From Isosphaera sp. (GTDB lineage: Bacteria > Planctomycetota > Planctomycetia > Gemmatales > Gemmataceae): DNA of 64,000 nucleotides. Position numbers and translations under genes: made by a program. The DNA is taken from positions 1 to 64,000 of the forward strand of contig PNKH01000030.1 in assembly GCA_013822345.1 (NCBI GenBank). The letters are read 5' to 3'. The number at the start of each line of letters is the position of its first letter. Within the stretch, counting starts at the first letter, position 1. This document shows, piece by piece, positions 11,072-18,945 of this stretch. The notes beneath the pieces were generated by a model, which saw only the letters and a program-made list of their open reading frames with translations, had not been told where the DNA came from and did not search any database.

Positions 11072-13192
11072 TTACTTCGCCCCGCGGCCGCGCCACAGGC
11101 GGTCGGCGAAGTCCATGAACCGCTCCCAGTCGTAGGCGGTCAGGTTGTGGACGCCGCGGCGGACGTGGTATCCGACCCGGCCGCGGGCCAGCGGGGTGTC
11201 GAGCGGCGGCATCTCGTCCGGCTTCAACCCCGGGTGCTTGTACAGGTCGTACACCGGGGCGGCGTGGGCCAGGGCCAGGAACTCGCCGCGCGGGTCGGCC
11301 CACAGGTCGGCGTCGGCGCTGGCGACGTACAACCCGCGCGGGGCGATCAGGGCCAGGAGTTGGTGCTGGTCGACCGGCAGCTCGTCCTCCCGGCCGTCGT
11401 ACGTCTTGAAGTTGTCGCAGAACCAGTGCAGGAAGCCGCGGTTGATCGCCGCGACCGTCTCCCCGAACGGGCGGCGGCTCAGGGCCGCCCCGCCGCACCC
11501 GGAGTCGTTCGACACCACCAGGCCGAACCGCTCGTCCTGCGCCCCCGCCCACAGGGCCGTCTTGCCGCCGCGGGAGTGGCCGACGACCGCGACCTTCGAG
11601 GCGTCGACCGCCTGGTCCGTCTGGAGGTAGTCGAGCACCCGGCTCGCGCCCCACGCCCACGCCGACAGGGTCGCCCACGAGTCCTCGCCGGGCTTCCCGC
11701 CGCCCTCCGGCCACACCCCGCGCACGCCGCCGGCCCGGGCCGCGTCGTCCTTCTTGTCCGCGTCCACGTCGTTGGTGCGGAACACGGCGGTGGCGTACCC
11801 CCGGGCGACGATCTCCTCCGCCGGCCAGAACCCGTCCGTGACCTTGCGGGTCGGGTCGGCGCTCTCGACCCCGCGGTTGTTGATCAGCACGAACGCCGGC
11901 ACCGGCCCCTTCGCCGCGTTCGGAATGAGCACCGCCGTTTCGAACGTGAACGACTTGCCGCCTGCGTCCCGGCTGGTGATCCGCACCCGCTTCAGGGTCG
12001 CCCGGCCTTCGAGCGCCTTCGGGTCGGTGTGGGTGACCTCGAACCGCACCTCGGCCGGCTTCTCCGGCGGGCGGCCGTAGACGTGCTTGCGGAACAGGTC
12101 GAGCGTCGCCGGCCGGCCCTTCTTCTCCCACTCCTCGGCGGTCGTGATCCGGCCGCCGCCGACCGCGAGCGGGTCGGGGAGCTTCACCTCGGGCACCTTC
12201 TCCTCGCGGAAGTTCCACGTCACCTTCCGCTTCTCGAGGTCCGCGAGCAGCTTCGGGTCCGCACGCCAGGGGAGGGGGGTGGCGGTGTGCCCGCGCTCCC
12301 GCCACGCCCACGCGAACAGGTTGCGGGTGTCGGTGTACCGGCTGTCGTTCGAGGTGCTGCCGAGGACGACCACGAGGAGTTGGTCGGCCCCGCGCCGGCC
12401 GCTCGCGACCAGGCACGACCCGGCCGCGGTCGTGGTCCCGGTCTTCACCCCCTCGTACCCGTCGATCCCGAGCAGCCGGTTGGTGTTGTCCCAGACGACC
12501 GCCCGCTTCTCCCCGCCCGGGGCGGTCGCCTCGCACTCGTGCCGGCGGGTGCCGACGTACCGCCGGAACCGCGGGTCGGTCATCGCCGCCGCGGCGAGGG
12601 CGGCGAGGTCGCGGGCGCTCGACAGGTTCTTCCCGAGCCCGTGCGGGTCGAGGTACTTCGTCTCGGCCAGCTTCAGCGCGGCGGCCCGGCGGTTCATCTC
12701 GCCGACGAACAGCCCGAGCGGGTCGGCGTCCTTGTCCTTCCCGAACCGCCGGCCGAAGTGCTCGGCGAGCGCGACCGCCGCGTCGTTCCCCGAGGGGAGG
12801 AGCAGCCCGAAGAGCATGTCGCGGACGCGGAACTTCTCGCCGGCCTCAATGCGGGCGCCGCTGCCGGTGGTCTTCGCCGCCCGCTCGGTGACGGTGATCG
12901 TCTCGTCGAGCACCCCCGGGTCATCTGCCGCCAGGCGGAGGACGAGCCAGGCGGTCATGATCTTGGTGGTGCTGGCGATCACCAGCGGCTCCGCCTCCTT
13001 CGACCCGTATAGCAGTTTCCCGGTGGCCCCGTCGGCGACCGCCCACGCCTTCGCGGAGACGGCCGGCGGGCCGTCGACCCGGTCGGCCGGGGCCTTCGCG
13101 GGGAGTGGGGCCTTCTCCGCGGGCGGTTGCGGCAGGGCGGGAACGGCGGCAAGGCCGGCGAGTGCGAGGCCCAGCAGGAGTCGGCGAACCAT
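11072..13192 (-). CDS. Fusion of D,D-carboxypeptidase (peptidase S11) and CE15-like esterase
   Basis: A 706-residue exported protein with a signal peptide at about 1-20. Residues about 42-300 form a penicillin-binding D-alanyl-D-alanine carboxypeptidase with all three active-site motifs: S74-T-T-K77, S134-G-N136 and K250-T-G252. Residues about 330-706 form an alpha/beta hydrolase resembling glucuronoyl methylesterases (CE15). It has the nucleophile elbow GHSRGG (S540), a buried alpha/beta core and the late catalytic His context GVHNLTAYDW (H682). The single frame has no gap or stop. The first half should trim peptidoglycan peptides; the second should cleave ester bonds, possibly between lignin and glucuronoxylan or an analogue. 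I do not recall these two joined. Start ATG 13190-13192. Confidence 0.88.
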   Translation of the reverse strand: MVRRLLLGLALAGLAAVPALPQPPAEKAPLPAKAPADRVDGPPAVSAKAWAVADGATGKLLYGSKEAEPLVIASTTKIMTAWLVLRLAADDPGVLDETITVTERAAKTTGSGARIEAGEKFRVRDMLFGLLLPSGNDAAVALAEHFGRRFGKDKDADPLGLFVGEMNRRAAALKLAETKYLDPHGLGKNLSSARDLAALAAAAMTDPRFRRYVGTRRHECEATAPGGEKRAVVWDNTNRLLGIDGYEGVKTGTTTAAGSCLVASGRRGADQLLVVVLGSTSNDSRYTDTRNLFAWAWRERGHTATPLPWRADPKLLADLEKRKVTWNFREEKVPEVKLPDPLAVGGGRITTAEEWEKKGRPATLDLFRKHVYGRPPEKPAEVRFEVTHTDPKALEGRATLKRVRITSRDAGGKSFTFETAVLIPNAAKGPVPAFVLINNRGVESADPTRKVTDGFWPAEEIVARGYATAVFRTNDVDADKKDDAARAGGVRGVWPEGGGKPGEDSWATLSAWAWGASRVLDYLQTDQAVDASKVAVVGHSRGGKTALWAGAQDERFGLVVSNDSGCGGAALSRRPFGETVAAINRGFLHWFCDNFKTYDGREDELPVDQHQLLALIAPRGLYVASADADLWADPRGEFLALAHAAPVYDLYKHPGLKPDEMPPLDTPLARGRVGYHVRRGVHNLTAYDWERFMDFADRLWRGRGAK

Positions 13193-13233: not shown

Positions 13234-13299
13234 CCGGGCCGCCACGGAGGGCGGCCCCTACCGAATGTGTGGTAGGGGCCGCCCTCCGTGGCGGCCCGG
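13234..13299. repeat. Perfect 29-bp palindrome
   Basis: Arms 13234-13262 and 13271-13299 are perfectly complementary around the 8-nt loop GAATGTGT. It lies between the DUF1501 stop (13308) and the start of the S11/CE15 fusion (13192), both genes on the minus strand. Arm core: GGCCGCCACGGAGGGCGGCC. Confidence 0.9.
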
Positions 13300-13307
13300 A
13301 CCGCTGG

Positions 13308-14765
13308 TCAGCGGAGCAGCTCCTTGATCGGCTTCTGCTCCTCGACCCCGGTCAGCCGCTGGTCGAGGCCCTGGAACTTGAACGAGAACTTCGCGTGGTC
13401 GATCCCGAGGCAGTGGAGCACGGTGGCGTTCAGGTCGTTCACGTGGGCCGGCTTGTCGGCGACGTTGTAGCTGAAGTCGTCCGTCTCGCCGTACACCTGG
13501 CCGCCCCTCACCCCGCCGCCGGCGAGCCACATGCAGAAGTTCCGCGGGTGGTGGTCCCGGCCGTAGGTCGTCTTGTTCAGCGTCCCCTGGCAGTACACCG
13601 TCCGGCCGAACTCCCCGCCCCACACGACCAGGGTGCTGTCGAGCAGCCCGCGCTGCTTCAGGTCGGTCAGCAGGGCGGCGGTCGGCCGGTCGGTGTCGAG
13701 GCACTGGCTGCGGAGGTCGTTCGGCAGGTTCCCGTGCTGGTCCCACCCGCGGTGGAGGACCTGCACCGCCCGCACCCCGCGCTCGACGAGCCGGCGGGCG
13801 AGGAGGGCGCTGGCCGCGAACGACCCCGGCTTGTGCACCTCCGGGCCGTACAGGTCGAGCACCTTCGCCGACTCCTTCGACAGGTCGACCAGGTCGGGCA
13901 CGCTCCGCTGCATCCGGAACGCCATCTCGTACTGGGCGATCCGGGTCAGCGTCTCCGGGTCGCCGTACTTGTCGTAGGTCTTCTTGTTCAGCTCGCCGAG
14001 GGTGTCGAGCATGGCCCGGCGGCCGTCCTCGGAGACACCGGCGGGGTTCTGGACGTACAGCACCGGGTCGCCGACGCTCCGCAGCGCCACGCCGCTGTAC
14101 TTCGTCGGCAGGAACCCGCTCGCCCACATCCGGGAGAACAGGGCCTGGGCGGCCGCCTTCGACGTCCACCACGGGGTGAGGACGACGAACGCCGGGAGGT
14201 CGTTGCTCTCGCTGCCGAGGCCGTAGGCGAGCCAAGACCCGACGCTCGGCTTGCCCGGCACCTCGCTCCCGGTCATGACGAACGTGCAGGCCGGGTCGTG
14301 GTTGATGGCGTTCGTGTGAACCGTCTTCACCAGCGCGATGTCGTCGACGCACTTGGCGGTGTGCGGGAGGAGTTCGCTCACCCACATGCCGCACTTCCCG
14401 TGCTGGGCGAACTTGAACATGCTCGGGGCGACCGGCAGCCGGGCCTGGTGGCTGGTCATCGTGGTGATCCGCTGGCCCATCCGGACCGTCGCGGGGAGGT
14501 CCTTGTCGAAGTGGTCGGCGAGCTTCGGCTTGTGGTCGAAGGTGTCGAGCTGGCTCGGCCCGCCGTTCATGTGGAGGTAGATGACCGCCTTGGCGGTCGG
14601 CGGGTGGTGCGGGAACCCGGGGAGCGGCGGGTGGACGCGGTCGGCGGTGGCGCCGGCGCGGCGGCCGGCGAGGAGGGCGAGGGCGGCCCCGCCGAGCCGG
14701 AGGCCCGTCGAGCCGAAGAACTGGCGGCGGGTCTGGTGGAGGGTGTGTTCGTGGAGCGGGTTCAT
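13308..14765 (-). CDS. DUF1501 protein, Tat-like export signal
   Basis: A 485-residue protein starting at ATG 14763-14765. The N-terminus [20 protein letters not shown] has the twin-arginine and hydrophobic pattern of a Tat signal. The body is a DUF1501 (sulfatase/alkaline-phosphatase-like fold) protein with the typical [54 protein letters not shown] and GRDHHP motifs. In planctomycetes such proteins normally pair with a DUF1549/DUF1553 cytochrome protein. Here that partner is absent, unlike at 54659-58932. Their substrate is unknown. The metal-binding residues expected of the fold (D and H in GRDHHPRN) appear intact. Confidence 0.92.
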
Positions 14766-14844
14766 GGCTGGTGGAGAAGAGGTTGGACAGGATAACAGGA
14801 TGAACAGGATCAGAAACTCGGGGCCCCCGGCGGGTGTTCCGGGG

Positions 14845-14987
14845 GCAGGGCCAACGCATCTAGAATAAGCCGCCTTCGGCGATCTTGCATTCCCGAGCGC
14901 GGTTTCGGCCAAGGGAAGGGAGGGGACGCTCACCATCGCCTTGAATCAGAGGCCGTTTTCAAGGCGATTTAGATGCGTCGGCCCTGC
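14845..14987. repeat. Imperfect nested inverted repeat in an AT-richer gap
   Basis: The outer arms 14845-14862 and 14970-14987 pair over 18 bp with one mismatch (GCAGGGCCAACGCATCTA against its complement). An inner 11-bp hairpin, ATCGCCTTGAA (14935-14945) with TTCAAGGCGAT (14958-14968), is perfect. The sequence between them is lower in GC than the surroundings. It fills the gap between DUF1501 and DUF1080, both on the minus strand. Confidence 0.75.
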
Positions 14988-15018: not shown

Positions 15019-15762
15019 CTACTTCACGGGTTTGATCCGCACGTTCCGGAAGGCGACCGGGCCGTGGTCGGCCTGGAGCATGAACGGCCCGGTCGGCGTC
15101 TCCTTCTTCACCCAGTTCGCCCCGGTCGGCGTCTTCAGCTCCTGGTTCTCGTGGACCAACTCGCCGTTCAGCACCGCCTTCACCACCACCGCGTTCGCCG
15201 TCTTCTCGCCCTTCGCGTCGAACCGCGGCGACCTCCACACCACGTCGAGCGTCTGCCACTCCCCGGCCGGCTTCGCCGCGTTCACCCTCGGGGCGATCCC
15301 CTTGTCGAGGTGCTTATACCCCATCGAGGCGTCGGCCCGCGGGTAGATGCCGCCCGTGCTGTCCCCGCTCAGCTCCTTCTTCCCGGCCGTGTCCAGGATC
15401 TGGATCTCGTACACGGCGTGGAACTTGATCCCGGAGTTCGAGTTCTTCGCGATCAGGAACTCGACGTGCACCTCGCAGTCCCCGTACTCGGCCTTGGTGA
15501 CCAGGTCCGGGAGCCGCCCGGTCTCGCCGTTCACCCAGACCGTGCCGCCGTCCTTCGGGGTGGCGGCCAGGCGGGTGTTCTTCTCCGGGTTCAGCCTCAC
15601 CCCGTCGGTCGCGACCCACTTCGGGTCGAACTTCTTCCACGCGTCCGGCCTCAGCAGGTCGACCCACCCGTCGGCCGGCTTCGGGTCCGGCTTCTTCGGG
15701 TCGTCGGCCCCGGCGAGGGAGCCGGCGGACGCGGCGAGGAGGAGGGCGAGGGCGGTCTTCAT
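15019..15762 (-). CDS. DUF1080 (3-keto-disaccharide hydrolase-like) secreted protein
   Basis: A 247-residue protein with a signal peptide (MKTALALLLAASAGSLAGA), start ATG 15760-15762. The rest is one DUF1080 domain, a concanavalin-like beta-jelly roll: the typical strands DCEVHVEFLIAKNSNSGI, a YEIQILDT segment, GEWQTLDVVWRSPRF and PVAFRNVRIKP at the end. Characterised members hydrolyse 3-keto-glycosides, while others may only bind sugars. It is divergent from the lactonase gene at 15853, with 90 bp between starts. A second, more distant DUF1080 protein is at 18159-18803. It probably acts in the periplasm or outside the cell. Confidence 0.9.
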   Translation of the reverse strand: MKTALALLLAASAGSLAGADDPKKPDPKPADGWVDLLRPDAWKKFDPKWVATDGVRLNPEKNTRLAATPKDGGTVWVNGETGRLPDLVTKAEYGDCEVHVEFLIAKNSNSGIKFHAVYEIQILDTAGKKELSGDSTGGIYPRADASMGYKHLDKGIAPRVNAAKPAGEWQTLDVVWRSPRFDAKGEKTANAVVVKAVLNGELVHENQELKTPTGANWVKKETPTGPFMLQADHGPVAFRNVRIKPVK

Positions 15763-15852
15763 GGCGGTCGGTCCCTGGGGTGATTTCGTTACCGGCGGCG
15801 CGGCGGGGCCATTATCATCAACCCTCTCGCCCGCCCCACACCGGAGGATTCT

Positions 15853-16980
15853 ATGCCCCTCTCCCGCGCCGCGGCCGCCGCGGCCGTGCTCCTGGCCGCC
15901 GGGACCGCCGCGGCCGACGACCACTGGGTGTTCCTCGGCACGTACACCGGCAAGTCGGACAAGGACAGTAAGGGGATCTACCGGGCGAAGTTCGATTCGA
16001 AGACCGGCAAGCTCGGCGCCCCGGAGCTGGCGGCCGAGATGGGGAGTCCGTCGTTCCTGGCGGTCCACCCGACGAACAAGTACCTGTACGCGGTCGGGGA
16101 GGGCGGCGGGAAGGAGGGCGGGCCGGTGGTCGCGCTCGGCCTCGACGCCAAGACCGGGAAGCTGACGAAGTTGAACGAGGAGAAGAGCGGCGGGGCCGGC
16201 CCGTGCCACATTTCTGTCCACCCCAGCGGGCTCTGGGTGACAGTGGCCAACTACGGCGGCGGGAGCACGGCCGTGTTCAAGCTCGACCGGGACGGGGAGC
16301 TCGCCGGCCGGGTCGGGCTCGTCCAGCACCAGGGGAGCGGGCCGAACAAGGGGCGGCAGGAGGGGCCGCACGCCCACTGCTCGTTCTTCGACCCGTCCGG
16401 GAACTTCGCCCTGACCGTCGACCTGGGGACGGACAAGGTGAAGGTGTTCCTGTTCGACCCGGCCCGGGTGACGGAGATGCCTGATCGGGACATCAAGCTC
16501 CCGGCCGGGTCCGGGCCGCGGCACATCGCCATCGCCCCGGACGGGAAGTTCGCCTACGTCTGCGGGGAGCTCGACTCGACGGTCAACGTGGTCGAGTTGG
16601 CGGAGAAGGGCGGCGGGAAGGTGGTGCAGTCCCTCTCCACGCTCCCCAAGCCGACCCCGGGGAACTCGACCGCCGAGTGCGTCCTGCACCCGTCCGGGAA
16701 GTTCGTGTACGTCTCGAACCGCGGGCACAACAGCGTCGCGGTGTTCAAGGTCGGGGAGGACCGCAGGCTGACCGCCGCCGGGCACATCACCGGCGACATC
16801 AACACCCCGCGGAACTTCAACATCGACCCGACCGGCAAGTGGATGCTGATCGCGAGTCAGGGCGGCGGGAAGGTCGGGGTGTGGGAGCTCGACCCGGCCA
16901 CCGGGATGGGGAAGGAGACCGGGAACACGATCGCGATCAGCCGGTGCGTGTGCGTCAAGTTCGTGCCGATGGCCAAGTAA
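15853..16980 (+). CDS. Lactonase-family seven-bladed beta-propeller
   Basis: A 375-residue protein of the 6-phosphogluconolactonase (YbhE/Pgl) family with an added signal peptide (about 1-20), so it works outside the cytoplasm. Motifs typical of the family are GTYTGKSD.KGIYR near the start, SPSFLAVHPTNKYLYAV, GPCHISVHPSG, GPHAHCSFFDPSGNFALTVDLGTDKV, GPRHIAIAPDGKFAYVCGEL and a final TPRNFNIDPTGKWMLIASQ. Start ATG 15853 has GGAGG 6 nt upstream. The export signal argues against a role in the pentose phosphate pathway and for hydrolysis of an extracellular sugar lactone. It is followed by a second propeller gene 64 bp downstream on the same strand. Confidence 0.9.
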   Translation: MPLSRAAAAAAVLLAAGTAAADDHWVFLGTYTGKSDKDSKGIYRAKFDSKTGKLGAPELAAEMGSPSFLAVHPTNKYLYAVGEGGGKEGGPVVALGLDAKTGKLTKLNEEKSGGAGPCHISVHPSGLWVTVANYGGGSTAVFKLDRDGELAGRVGLVQHQGSGPNKGRQEGPHAHCSFFDPSGNFALTVDLGTDKVKVFLFDPARVTEMPDRDIKLPAGSGPRHIAIAPDGKFAYVCGELDSTVNVVELAEKGGGKVVQSLSTLPKPTPGNSTAECVLHPSGKFVYVSNRGHNSVAVFKVGEDRRLTAAGHITGDINTPRNFNIDPTGKWMLIASQGGGKVGVWELDPATGMGKETGNTIAISRCVCVKFVPMAK

Positions 16981-17044
16981 GTGGTCAGTGGTCAGCCAGG
17001 CACCCCCGCCGTCGGCCGGCGGGGGCTACTTCCGGAGGTCACCC

Positions 17045-18079
17045 GTGCTCGTCCTACCCGTTCTGCTGCTGCTCCCCGCCGCGTCGCCGCCCGGGCCGAA
17101 GAAACTCGAACGCGTCGGCGAGGTCCGGAAGATCTGGGACGGGGGGAAGCACAACGCCTTCACCGACCTGGTCCGGTTCCGCGACCGGTGGTTCTGCACC
17201 TTCCGCGAGGGGGACGCGCACGTCGGCGGGGACGGCACGGTCCGCGTCCTCACCTCGGCCGACGGGGTCGCGTGGGAGTCGGCCGCGCTGCTCGCGGAGA
17301 AGGGGGTCGACCTCCGCGACCCCAAGTTCTCCGTCACCCCGGACGGGCGGCTGATGATCGTCGCCGGCGGGTCGGTGTACGAGGGGACGAAGCTCCTCGG
17401 CCGCCGGCCGCGGGTCGCGTTCTCGAAGGACGGCAAGGACTGGACGCCGACCCGGAAGGTCCTGGACGAGGGCGAGTGGCTGTGGCGGGTGACGTGGCAC
17501 GGCGGGAAGTGCTACGGGGTGTCGTACAACGCCGCCGCCCGGACCACCGAGGCGGCGAAGGAGGCGGCCAAGACCGGCAAGGCCGAGCCCGGCCCGGCCG
17601 ACTGGAAGCTGAAGCTGGTGGTCAGCACCGACGGGGAGAAGTTCGACCTGGTGACCCACCTCGACGTGCCCGGCCACCCGAACGAGACGACGCTGCGGTT
17701 CGCGCCGGATGGGACGATGGTCGCGCTGGTGCGGCGGGAGGGCGGCGACACCCACGGCTGGGTCGGGGCGGCGGCGGCCCCGTACAAGGAGTGGAAGTGG
17801 AAGGACCTCGGCGCCCGGGTCGGCGGGCCGAACTTCGTGTTCCTGCCGGGCGGCCCGGCGGTGGCGGCGGCGCGGCTGTACGACAAGCCGGTGCGGACGA
17901 GCCTCGGGCTGCTCGACGTGACCGGGGGGAAGCTGACCGAGGTGCTGACGCTGCCGAGCGGCGGCGACACCAGCTACGCCGGGCTGGTGTGGCACGACGA
18001 CCTGCTGTGGGTGAGCTACTACTCGTCGCACGAGGGGAAGTCGAGCATCTACCTGGCCAAGGTGCGGGTCGGGAAGTGA
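17045..18079 (+). CDS. Exo-alpha-sialidase-fold (BNR-type) protein
   Basis: A protein of about 344 residues from the GTG at 17045, chosen because a perfect GGAGG lies about 7 nt before it and a signal peptide (VLPVLLLLPAASP) follows; an ATG at 16988 has neither. The body has sialidase/neuraminidase-superfamily features: KHNAFTDLVRFRDRWFCTFREG, an Asp-box-like SADGVAWESAALL, PDGRLMIVAGG, PRVAFSKDGKDWTPTRKVL and PNETTLRFAPDGTMVALVRRE. The initial Arg/FREG segment resembles the arginine-bearing RIP region. Whether it cleaves sialic acid or another glycoside is not clear. It lies downstream of the lactonase gene and is probably in one unit with it. Confidence 0.85.
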   Translation: MLVLPVLLLLPAASPPGPKKLERVGEVRKIWDGGKHNAFTDLVRFRDRWFCTFREGDAHVGGDGTVRVLTSADGVAWESAALLAEKGVDLRDPKFSVTPDGRLMIVAGGSVYEGTKLLGRRPRVAFSKDGKDWTPTRKVLDEGEWLWRVTWHGGKCYGVSYNAAARTTEAAKEAAKTGKAEPGPADWKLKLVVSTDGEKFDLVTHLDVPGHPNETTLRFAPDGTMVALVRREGGDTHGWVGAAAAPYKEWKWKDLGARVGGPNFVFLPGGPAVAAARLYDKPVRTSLGLLDVTGGKLTEVLTLPSGGDTSYAGLVWHDDLLWVSYYSSHEGKSSIYLAKVRVGK

Positions 18080-18158: not shown

Positions 18159-18803
18159 TCACTTGAACGGGGTGATCCGGACGTTGCGGTAGCTGACCGC
18201 GGCCCCGTGGTCCTGGAACCCGATGTGGCCCTCCCGCTTGAAGTCCTTCAGGGCCGTCTTGAACTTATTCTTCGACCCGTCCGGGTTCTTCCCGCCCTCG
18301 GTCCACTTGTCCAGGTCCATCTCGTTCACCTTCTCGCCGTTCACCTCGACGGTGATGACGCTCCCCTTCGCGGTGACGGTCATCTTGTTCCAGTCGTCCT
18401 TCTTGCTGGCGTCCTTGGTCGGGGCGACCAGGTCGTACAGGGCGCCGACGCTGTGCCTCCCGGGGTTACCGGGCTTGTCCACCTGGATCTCGATCCCGGT
18501 CTGGACGTTGTCGGTCGGCTTGTCGGTGCGGATGAACACCCCGCTGTTCCCGGCCGTCTTGAACTCCAGCTCCAGCCGGAAGTCGCCGAACCGGTCCTTC
18601 GTCCAGATGTCGCCGCCGGCCGCCTCCCGGGCCATCGCCCCGTCCTTCACCACCCACCCCTTCGTCACCGGATCCCCCTTGGCGGTCTGCCAGCCGACGA
18701 AGTCGGTCCCGTTGAACAGGGGCCTGGCAGCGGACTTGTCGTCGGCCGCGGGGGCGGCGAGCCCGGCAGCCAGCAGCGGGAGGGCGAACAGGACGCGGGT
18801 CAT
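18159..18803 (-). CDS. DUF1080 secreted protein (second copy)
   Basis: A 214-residue protein with a signal peptide (MTRVLFALPLLAAGLAAPA). Start ATG 18801-18803 has AGGAG about 9 nt upstream. It has the classical DUF1080 layout: PLFNGTDFVGWQTAKGD at the N-terminus, FGDFRLELEFKTAGNSGVFIRT, GIEIQVDKPG, WNKMTVTAKGSVITVEVNGEKV and a closing HIGFQDHGAAVSYRNVRITP. The family is a concanavalin-like sugar-binding or 3-keto-glycoside-hydrolysing fold. This copy is closer to the family consensus than the one at 15019-15762. It is downstream of DUF58, separated by a family B palindrome. Confidence 0.93.
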   Translation of the reverse strand: MTRVLFALPLLAAGLAAPAADDKSAARPLFNGTDFVGWQTAKGDPVTKGWVVKDGAMAREAAGGDIWTKDRFGDFRLELEFKTAGNSGVFIRTDKPTDNVQTGIEIQVDKPGNPGRHSVGALYDLVAPTKDASKKDDWNKMTVTAKGSVITVEVNGEKVNEMDLDKWTEGGKNPDGSKNKFKTALKDFKREGHIGFQDHGAAVSYRNVRITPFK

Positions 18804-18836
18804 GGGAAGGCACTCCTGGGGAATGGGGCTTCGGTT

Positions 18837-18945
18837 CCTGGACCGCGGCCGTCCCGGCCGCACGTGAACCGTCGGGTGAGCTTCGGGCGTTCCCCCCGGA
18901 GCCACTCGAATCGGGTACCGGCGGCCGGGACGGCCGCGGTCCAGG
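18837..18945. repeat. Palindrome, family B (copy 1)
   Basis: Perfect 25-bp arms 18837-18861 and 18921-18945 (CCTGGACCGCGGCCGTCCCG...) enclose a 59-nt loop. The right arm ends one base before the DUF58 stop codon. The same arm recurs at 26643, 48853 and 54579. Confidence 0.92.

Follow-up and report, generated by a model that had tools for sequence, protein, structure and literature searches.

The window analysed here, the whole stretch of 64,000 nucleotides, carries at 11072-13192 on the minus strand a single open frame of 706 codons plus stop, in which Pfam and PDB matches place a peptidase S11 half (residues 1-302, 12287-13192, minus strand) ahead of a CE15 glucuronyl esterase half (residues 309-706, 11075-12268, minus strand). 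An ORF check found the coordinates and the uninterrupted frame of the first-pass annotation of this DNA to be correct; that annotation gave no strand, and the plus-strand translation of 11072-13192 contains a stop. The window is GC-rich and long chance ORFs are frequent in it, so that the length of an ORF is by itself weak proof, and the case is carried by the domain matches and codon use. GC at the three codon positions is 0.72/0.54/0.96 in the S11 half and 0.71/0.50/0.98 in the CE15 half, and among 18 longer frames taken as genes in the window's first 25 kb, 16 reach a GC3 of at least 0.93, one of them the fusion, with frames in the loci of five relatives at 0.68-0.94. The codon-adaptation index, referenced to nine window genes that themselves score 0.74-0.92, is 0.75 for the S11 half, 0.82 for the CE15 half, and 0.14-0.62 for the five other reading frames. 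Because codon use is uniform across both halves, a chimera of two organisms is unlikely. The frame opens with a predicted export signal (about residues 1-22, 13127-13192, minus strand; called on hydropathy, with the cleavage site placed by eye), where Kyte-Doolittle hydropathy peaks for the whole protein (2.24, residues 5-6) and which is present likewise in stand-alone S11 relatives; the fusion protein is probably exported. Upstream, a DUF1501 gene (13308-14936, minus strand; PF07394, E 1.7e-149) ends its frame 115 bases before the fusion starts, and between the two genes lies a perfect 29-nt inverted repeat with an 8-nt loop (13234-13299), a hairpin without a T run and no terminator by the T-run rule. 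Promoter and terminator scans found none.

By family, the first half belongs to the D-Ala-D-Ala peptidases: Peptidase_S11 (PF00768) covers residues 42-279 (E 6.8e-48; 163.7 bits, Pfam cut-off 27.6), residues 45-297 match the S11 structure 3mfd (E 7.5e-32, phmmer against PDB chains), and NCBIfam returned sub-threshold matches of D-Ala-D-Ala carboxypeptidase type only. The motifs SxxK (S74TTK77, 12962-12973), SxN (S134GN136, 12785-12793) and KTG (K250TG252, 12437-12445), all on the minus strand, follow one another in the correct order, and S74, K77, S134, N136 and K250-G252 are invariant in an alignment of 11 S11 sequences. Modelled with AlphaFold (pLDDT 82.0), this half is predicted to adopt a penicillin-binding/beta-lactamase-type fold, with the Streptomyces K15 D,D-transpeptidase as best Foldseek match (E 5e-21; PDB 1skf/1es4, TM-score 0.88-0.89 by target length, 33-34% identity). 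Low-molecular-weight penicillin-binding proteins (PBPs) of family S11 consist of the S11 domain alone or carry a C-terminal beta domain and an anchor, the PBP5 subgroup having a C-terminal beta domain with an amphipathic anchor. The S11 half has SxxK, SxN and KTG in common with these proteins (PBP5/6, DacB), but in the fusion it is a CE15 domain that lies C-terminal to S11; a PBP5-type beta domain is absent, with the CE15 half beginning at residue 309 directly behind S11 and no other Pfam domain there. The halves were aligned and modelled separately, and a whole-fusion alignment, which misplaced CE15 N-termini onto the S11 half, was left unused for modelling.

The second half matches the Pfam family GCE_fung, glucuronyl esterase (PF22244), at residues 410-649 (E 2.7e-35; 122.7 bits, cut-off 27) and, over residues 326-702, the CE15 structure 8q6s (E 5e-101, phmmer against PDB chains), which is also the best Foldseek match of its AlphaFold model (pLDDT 84.6, E 1.6e-39). 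The nucleophile elbow of CE15 enzymes follows the pattern G-[HC]-S-R-x-G-K, and it is matched here by G538HSRGGK544 (11561-11581, minus strand), with S540 as predicted nucleophile. Together with the predicted catalytic acid D629 (11306-11308) and the predicted catalytic H682 (11147-11149), both on the minus strand, S540 makes up a complete S540-H682-D629 triad, and D563 (11504-11506, minus strand) stands at the second acid position, where the consensus of relatives has Asn. Across 29 aligned CE15 sequences, S540, R541, G543, K544, D629 and H682 do not vary. The GHSRxGK elbow and the Ser-Asp-His set are shared with the bacterial CE15s OtCE15A (6syr), Phocaeicola 8q6s, MZ0003 (6ehn) and Solibacter usitatus 6gry, and identity is 44% to 8q6s, 43-46% to OtCE15A and 39% to 6ehn. 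An ungapped pairwise alignment equates S540, D563, D629 and W631 with Ser267, Glu290, Asp356 and Trp358 of OtCE15A, both enzymes having a second acidic residue; Glu290 and Asp356 are described as two redundant acids in OtCE15A (PMC6937553), Trp358 is reported to stack with xylotriose in docking (PMC6069808), and a broader substrate scope is reported for MZ0003 (PMC5722869). Stand-alone CE15 relatives have their own signal peptide, whereas the fused CE15 half has none and is attached to S11. Pfam, phmmer/PDB and fold matches, the domain searches that the first-pass annotation had proposed, agree with its naming of the two halves, and the SxxK, SxN and KTG set and the GHSRGG elbow with a late His that it had read from the letters are all present, their catalytic residues being invariant in the homologue alignments. 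A degenerate active site in either half was considered and rejected on the conserved residues and the sound model folds.

The junction consists of residues 303-308 (TATPLP, 12269-12286, minus strand), between the end of S11 and the mature start of CE15. Among the homologues listed, stand-alone S11 relatives carry a tail of 1-12 residues past the last aligned residue near 302, and of 45 CE15 homologues 14 begin where residues 307-309 of the fusion align, usually with a W that matches W309 and directly follows the signal peptide, and most others where residues 325-328 align; the nearest CE15 relative, that of genome G512, belongs with the 14 in its starting point, and the nearest relatives begin their mature chain at the position of residue 309. 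Hydropathy in the junction region reaches a maximum of −0.1 (Kyte-Doolittle) against 2.24 at the N-terminal signal. What is missing at the joint is the tail and stop of S11 and the start and signal peptide of CE15, and by these alignments the joint falls exactly on the domain boundary. A frameshift or one-base error, a concern of the first-pass annotation, left no sign and was rejected: at the exact joint the signal peptide of CE15 has been lost and not merely read through. Because the joint is exact, the CE15 signal lost and GC3 uniform, both a base error and a two-organism chimera are disfavoured. Assembly could also have mis-joined two separate genes from within the same genome, as the single sighting and the draft state of the assembly (226 contigs) might suggest, but we consider this highly improbable: the joint keeps the reading frame and coincides with the border of each domain, the gene sits 11 kb inside a contig of 70,291 bases, both halves match the neighbouring genes in codon use, and the genome has no further S11 match besides the fusion. 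The S11-CE15 fusion is confirmed as a real domain fusion, so far of a single genome.

A second fused copy, expected as one match spanning the halves or as two matches at adjoining places, was found in none of the 18 other genomes of the genus and, among the matches listed, in none of the further genomes searched in the family (94, the 18 included), the class (396) and the phylum (391); these sets overlap, and overall the count is 0 of 748 other genomes (749 with its own, G000-G748). Candidates scored per genome were two for class and phylum, up to 12 for the family and up to 19 elsewhere, a depth at which a divergent fusion could escape. Nor was a copy present in the 80 loci kept of 117 confirmed on further genome contigs, and the two domains lie in one locus in 0 of 198 fetched loci, many reaching 1.5 kb beyond the match and no further, and in 0 of the 104 loci that span at least 7 kb. 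Genome G500, with a match at residues 238-699, was tried as a split S11/CE15 intermediate and rejected, its locus being a CE15 gene with no S11 match. The survey of other genomes that the first-pass annotation had proposed thus brought no recurrence, the architecture being confined to its own genome among the matches listed. In the literature, as far as the sources were available to us, no paper was found that joins glucuronoyl esterase, D-alanyl-D-alanine carboxypeptidase and fusion, and none there describes an S11-CE15 pairing. The architecture is new and built of two known families. Planctomycetal CE15s as such are already known (PMC4951047, PMC11131199), and so are CE15 enzymes with more than one catalytic domain, namely the CE15-GH8 protein from Bacteroides eggerthii (PMC8417218) and CkXyn10C-GE15A (PMC8280721), which, as reported, resemble the fusion in holding CE15 and a second catalytic domain in one chain but have a glycoside hydrolase as partner, where the fusion has a peptidase.

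Evolutionarily, the S11 half is most similar, among the matches listed, to a stand-alone S11 of its own family (L072 of G451, 68% identical), and in an S11 tree of 31 rows it falls in a 22-row group whose other members are 19 own-family rows, one from another family and one further bacterium; support for this group is 92/86, below the 95 mark of the tool, one branch of the tree is very long (L173), and no starred set holds the query. The CE15 half is 69% identical, among the matches listed, to the stand-alone CE15 of G512, a member of another family (f3), and forms a three-row group with the stand-alone CE15s of G512 and G165 (SH-aLRT 99) in a quick tree without bootstrap that took in 90 of 131 rows (the 70 best and 20 of the own genus). 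CE15s of the own genus make up a separate 18-row clade, one row of it from the same genome as the fusion, with two further own-genus rows elsewhere; the clade sits on a long branch of 1.73 that drew a long-branch warning, and its placement is unsure. G512 has an S11 as well, 53% identical to that of the fusion and on a different contig from its CE15. On the simplest reading of these relationships, the CE15 half would derive from outside the genus.

The DUF1501 gene offers a further clue to the history of the locus. In G500 and G308 a DUF1501 relative (62.5% and 39% identical, respectively) lies directly upstream of CE15 in the same orientation, with gaps of 198 and 169 bases. Among loci of 7 kb or more, DUF1501 matches occur in 3 of 77 CE15 loci and 8 of 27 S11 loci; two of the three CE15 cases are directly upstream, and the third (L125) is 1.8 kb away and reversed. 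The CE15 locus of G512 has no DUF1501 relative, weak relatives (28%) lie near S11 in opposite orientation in three genus mates, and in a comparison of 18 loci with the first 30 kb of the window no S11 locus of a relative had its gene order. The DUF1501 relatives directly upstream of CE15 in G500 and G308 give a hint, and no more, that S11 may have entered a locus that was once a DUF1501-CE15 pair. The same two loci, where DUF1501 precedes CE15 alone as if S11 had dropped in, also speak for the chief rival to the reading that we favour below, namely that a rearrangement joined two genes fortuitously, that the halves keep their old roles with no shared substrate or benefit, and that the chain was kept for export of CE15 by the S11 signal. 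This rival, which we take seriously while judging it unlikely, would suit an architecture that occurs in one genome only, among the matches listed, and S11 and CE15 genes that lie side by side in no fetched locus; however, both active-site sets are intact and codon use is uniform, and a working export solution was retained, since CE15 itself brings no signal.

Beyond DUF1501, Pfam identifies a 3-keto-disaccharide hydrolase (15019-15783), a 7-bladed lactonase on the opposite strand (15853-16980) and, past a protein without a family match (16988-18079), a second 3-keto-disaccharide hydrolase (18159-18905), which puts two such hydrolases and the lactonase all within 6 kb upstream of the fusion. 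Downstream lie a 263-residue protein without a family match and then the flavoprotein and iron-sulphur subunits of a succinate dehydrogenase/fumarate reductase. Families of 3-keto-disaccharide hydrolase and lactonase type are common in planctomycetes, and a relative of the lactonase (30%) adjoins CE15 in 1 of 77 CE15 loci (G342). A Pfam scan of 14 neighbouring proteins of the window matched no lignocellulose-degrading family, and a role on lignin esters, which the first-pass annotation brought up for CE15, would follow from membership in family CE15. Judged by family assignment, the upstream genes would fit carbohydrate breakdown better than wall upkeep.

For a peptidase of this kind, the wall genes of the host matter. 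The PBP transpeptidase domain (PF00905) has no match in the genome (95% complete), with 10 of 14 control genomes matching, and the single match to the Mur-ligase domain (PF08245) is FolC (NCBIfam, 367.5 bits against 162.65); this search covered PF00905 and the Mur-ligase domain. PF00905 occurs in 143 of 397 class genomes, within the family in G487 and G484 only, where the match is weak; all 18 genus mates appear among the genomes that have none. Strong S11 matches (E < 1e-40) occur in 21 of 95 family genomes (22 lie over the cut-off, the extra one being G478 at 28.1 bits), and of these 21 none is among the 143 with PF00905 and ten are among those listed as without a match. Published accounts diverge: in a 2025 study murA, C, D, F, G, murJ and ftsW are reported lost from Pirellulales, Isosphaerales and Gemmatales (PMC12283558) and in another too few peptidoglycan genes are reported for Gemmata massiliana (PMC4672568), versus reports of lysozyme-sensitive peptidoglycan sacculi in Gemmata obscuriglobus and essential peptidoglycan genes in all species analysed (Jeske et al., PMC4432640), with a review also cited for peptidoglycan in planctomycetes (PMC5147048). 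The canonical cross-linking enzymes were not found in the host by our search, but the host may still make its own substrate for the S11 half. Along the lines of the first-pass annotation, the fusion could be a self-envelope enzyme, whose S11 half would trim the cell's own reduced peptidoglycan as its CE15 half cut an ester of an envelope polysaccharide. The report of peptidoglycan in Gemmata obscuriglobus (PMC4432640), the resemblance of the S11 half to the K15 D,D-transpeptidase and the place of the fusion as the only S11 match of the genome are in its favour, but neither a PBP transpeptidase nor a Mur ligase was found in the genome, mur genes are reported lost in Gemmatales (PMC12283558), and a strong S11 in just 21 of 95 family genomes argues against a general envelope need, so that we regard it as rather improbable. 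Two halves with intact motifs in one frame stand from that interpretation; the link to remodelling of the own wall is weak.

Ten S11 proteins of relatives were scanned, of which five (L131, L135, L151, L165, L166) combine Beta-lactamase2, PG_binding_1 and S11, two (L023, L186) have PG_binding_1 and S11, and three (L072, L153, L167) have neither partner; these counts disregard a weak match to Beta-lactamase2 that overlaps S11 itself. The proteins with all three domains resemble the fusion in being multi-domain chains with a related S11 (48-57% identical), but their partners are N-terminal and wall-related, and CE15 is absent. PF00905 is present in the genome of L166 (G424), and the genomes of L186 (G512) and L023 (G053) are not among the 143 with PF00905. 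PG_binding_1 on these relatives suggests peptidoglycan as the S11 target, perhaps foreign peptidoglycan in hosts without a PBP. As for the CE15 partner, six planctomycetal genes from five MAGs (L075, L076, L077, L081, L083 and L085, with L076 and L077 in the same MAG) fuse CE15 to a polysaccharide-lyase-14 domain, a family of polyuronate lyases, which suggests that the possible substrates of CE15s include polyuronate esters besides lignin esters.

Taking these lines together, the reading that we favour, at about even confidence, is a genuine fusion in one planctomycete lineage that makes an exported degradative enzyme with two activities, directed at polymers outside the cell. A stand-alone-type S11 of the family is joined at the domain boundary to the mature part of a CE15, so that one N-terminal signal now serves both. 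The CE15 would have come from outside the genus, and the joint would have arisen when the stop of S11, whatever lay between the genes and the signal peptide of CE15 were lost; the order of events may have been that CE15 joined the S11 gene, or that S11 entered a DUF1501-CE15 locus. Once exported, the halves would act as two independent serine hydrolases in tandem, the S11 half cutting D-Ala-D-Ala peptides in the peptidoglycan of other bacteria and the CE15 half an ester on a uronic-acid polysaccharide, and the target would be outside polymers rather than the cell's own wall. The favoured reading draws on the exact joint, the loss of the CE15 signal, the invariant catalytic residues and the sound folds; on the grouping of the S11 half with its own family and of the CE15 half apart from the clade of the genus; on a genome without a PF00905 match, with FolC as its one Mur-ligase-type match and the fusion as its sole S11; on the absence of all 21 strong-S11 family genomes from the PF00905 set; on the PG-binding domain of sister-family S11s, found also in G512 and G053 outside that set; and on the sugar-related neighbours upstream. 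Against it stand the occurrence of the fusion in one genome, with both domains in no fetched locus, the succinate dehydrogenase/fumarate reductase genes downstream, the support of the S11 group under the 95 mark, the 95% completeness of the genome, and the sacculus reported for Gemmata obscuriglobus (PMC4432640), by which the organism may have a substrate of its own.

How the halves might cooperate is a matter of hypothesis. We can picture, as a long shot, a D,D-peptidase that outlasted the loss of the usual peptidoglycan-building genes, no longer had a part in wall upkeep, and became one exported tool with a uronoyl esterase against a single mixed target of peptides and uronic-acid polymers. 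Candidates for such a target would be walls of bacteria, whether prey or dead, that contain uronate polymers, or a wall of the planctomycete's own with ester bonds not yet described. If both activities serve one target, that target would carry both D-Ala-D-Ala peptides and uronate esters. More broadly, S11 proteins, some with PG-binding domains, persist in planctomycetes where no PBP transpeptidase was found, a persistence that bears on the dispute over how, or whether, planctomycetes build a wall, and the absence of a PBP transpeptidase match in the host makes the fusion the odder and the more interesting.

Across the 95 genomes of the family to which the source genome belongs, a strong S11 peptidase was found in 21 and a weak match to the PBP transpeptidase domain (PF00905) in 2, and the two sets were disjoint, with no genome of the 95, the source genome included, seen to carry both. 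Related S11 proteins vary in domain make-up: five (L131, L135, L151, L165, L166) have Beta-lactamase2 and PG_binding_1 domains upstream of the S11 domain, and two (L023, L186) have PG_binding_1 alone at that position. The genome of L166 (G424) is PF00905-positive; those of L023 (G053) and L186 (G512) are absent from the list of PF00905-positive genomes. As judged by eye, the stand-alone S11 relatives L018, L020, L099 and L172 begin with a twin-arginine-like stretch (e.g. NRRQFLQ), and these N-termini suggest an export route different from that of the query's signal.

Upstream of the fusion lies a DUF1501 gene (13308-14936), relatives of which sit directly upstream of a CE15 gene, on the same strand, in genomes G500 (62.5% identical) and G308 (39% identical). 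In the gap that separates the end of the DUF1501 gene from the start of the fusion lies a perfect inverted repeat (13234-13299; 29 nt, loop of 8 nt), and no other copy of its 21-nt core was found in the 64,000-nt window when up to 3 mismatches were allowed. Also upstream are two 3-keto-disaccharide hydrolase genes (15019-15783 and 18159-18905), between which lies a gene for a 7-bladed lactonase.

CE15 domains also occur with another partner in one chain, where a polysaccharide lyase 14 domain is fused on their C-terminal side (L075, L076, L077, L081, L083, L085; e.g. L077:3708-5876), an architecture that the domain scan returned for all six genes scanned, from five planctomycetal MAGs. This partner domain hints that polyuronate esters are the target of the lyase-14-fused CE15s.
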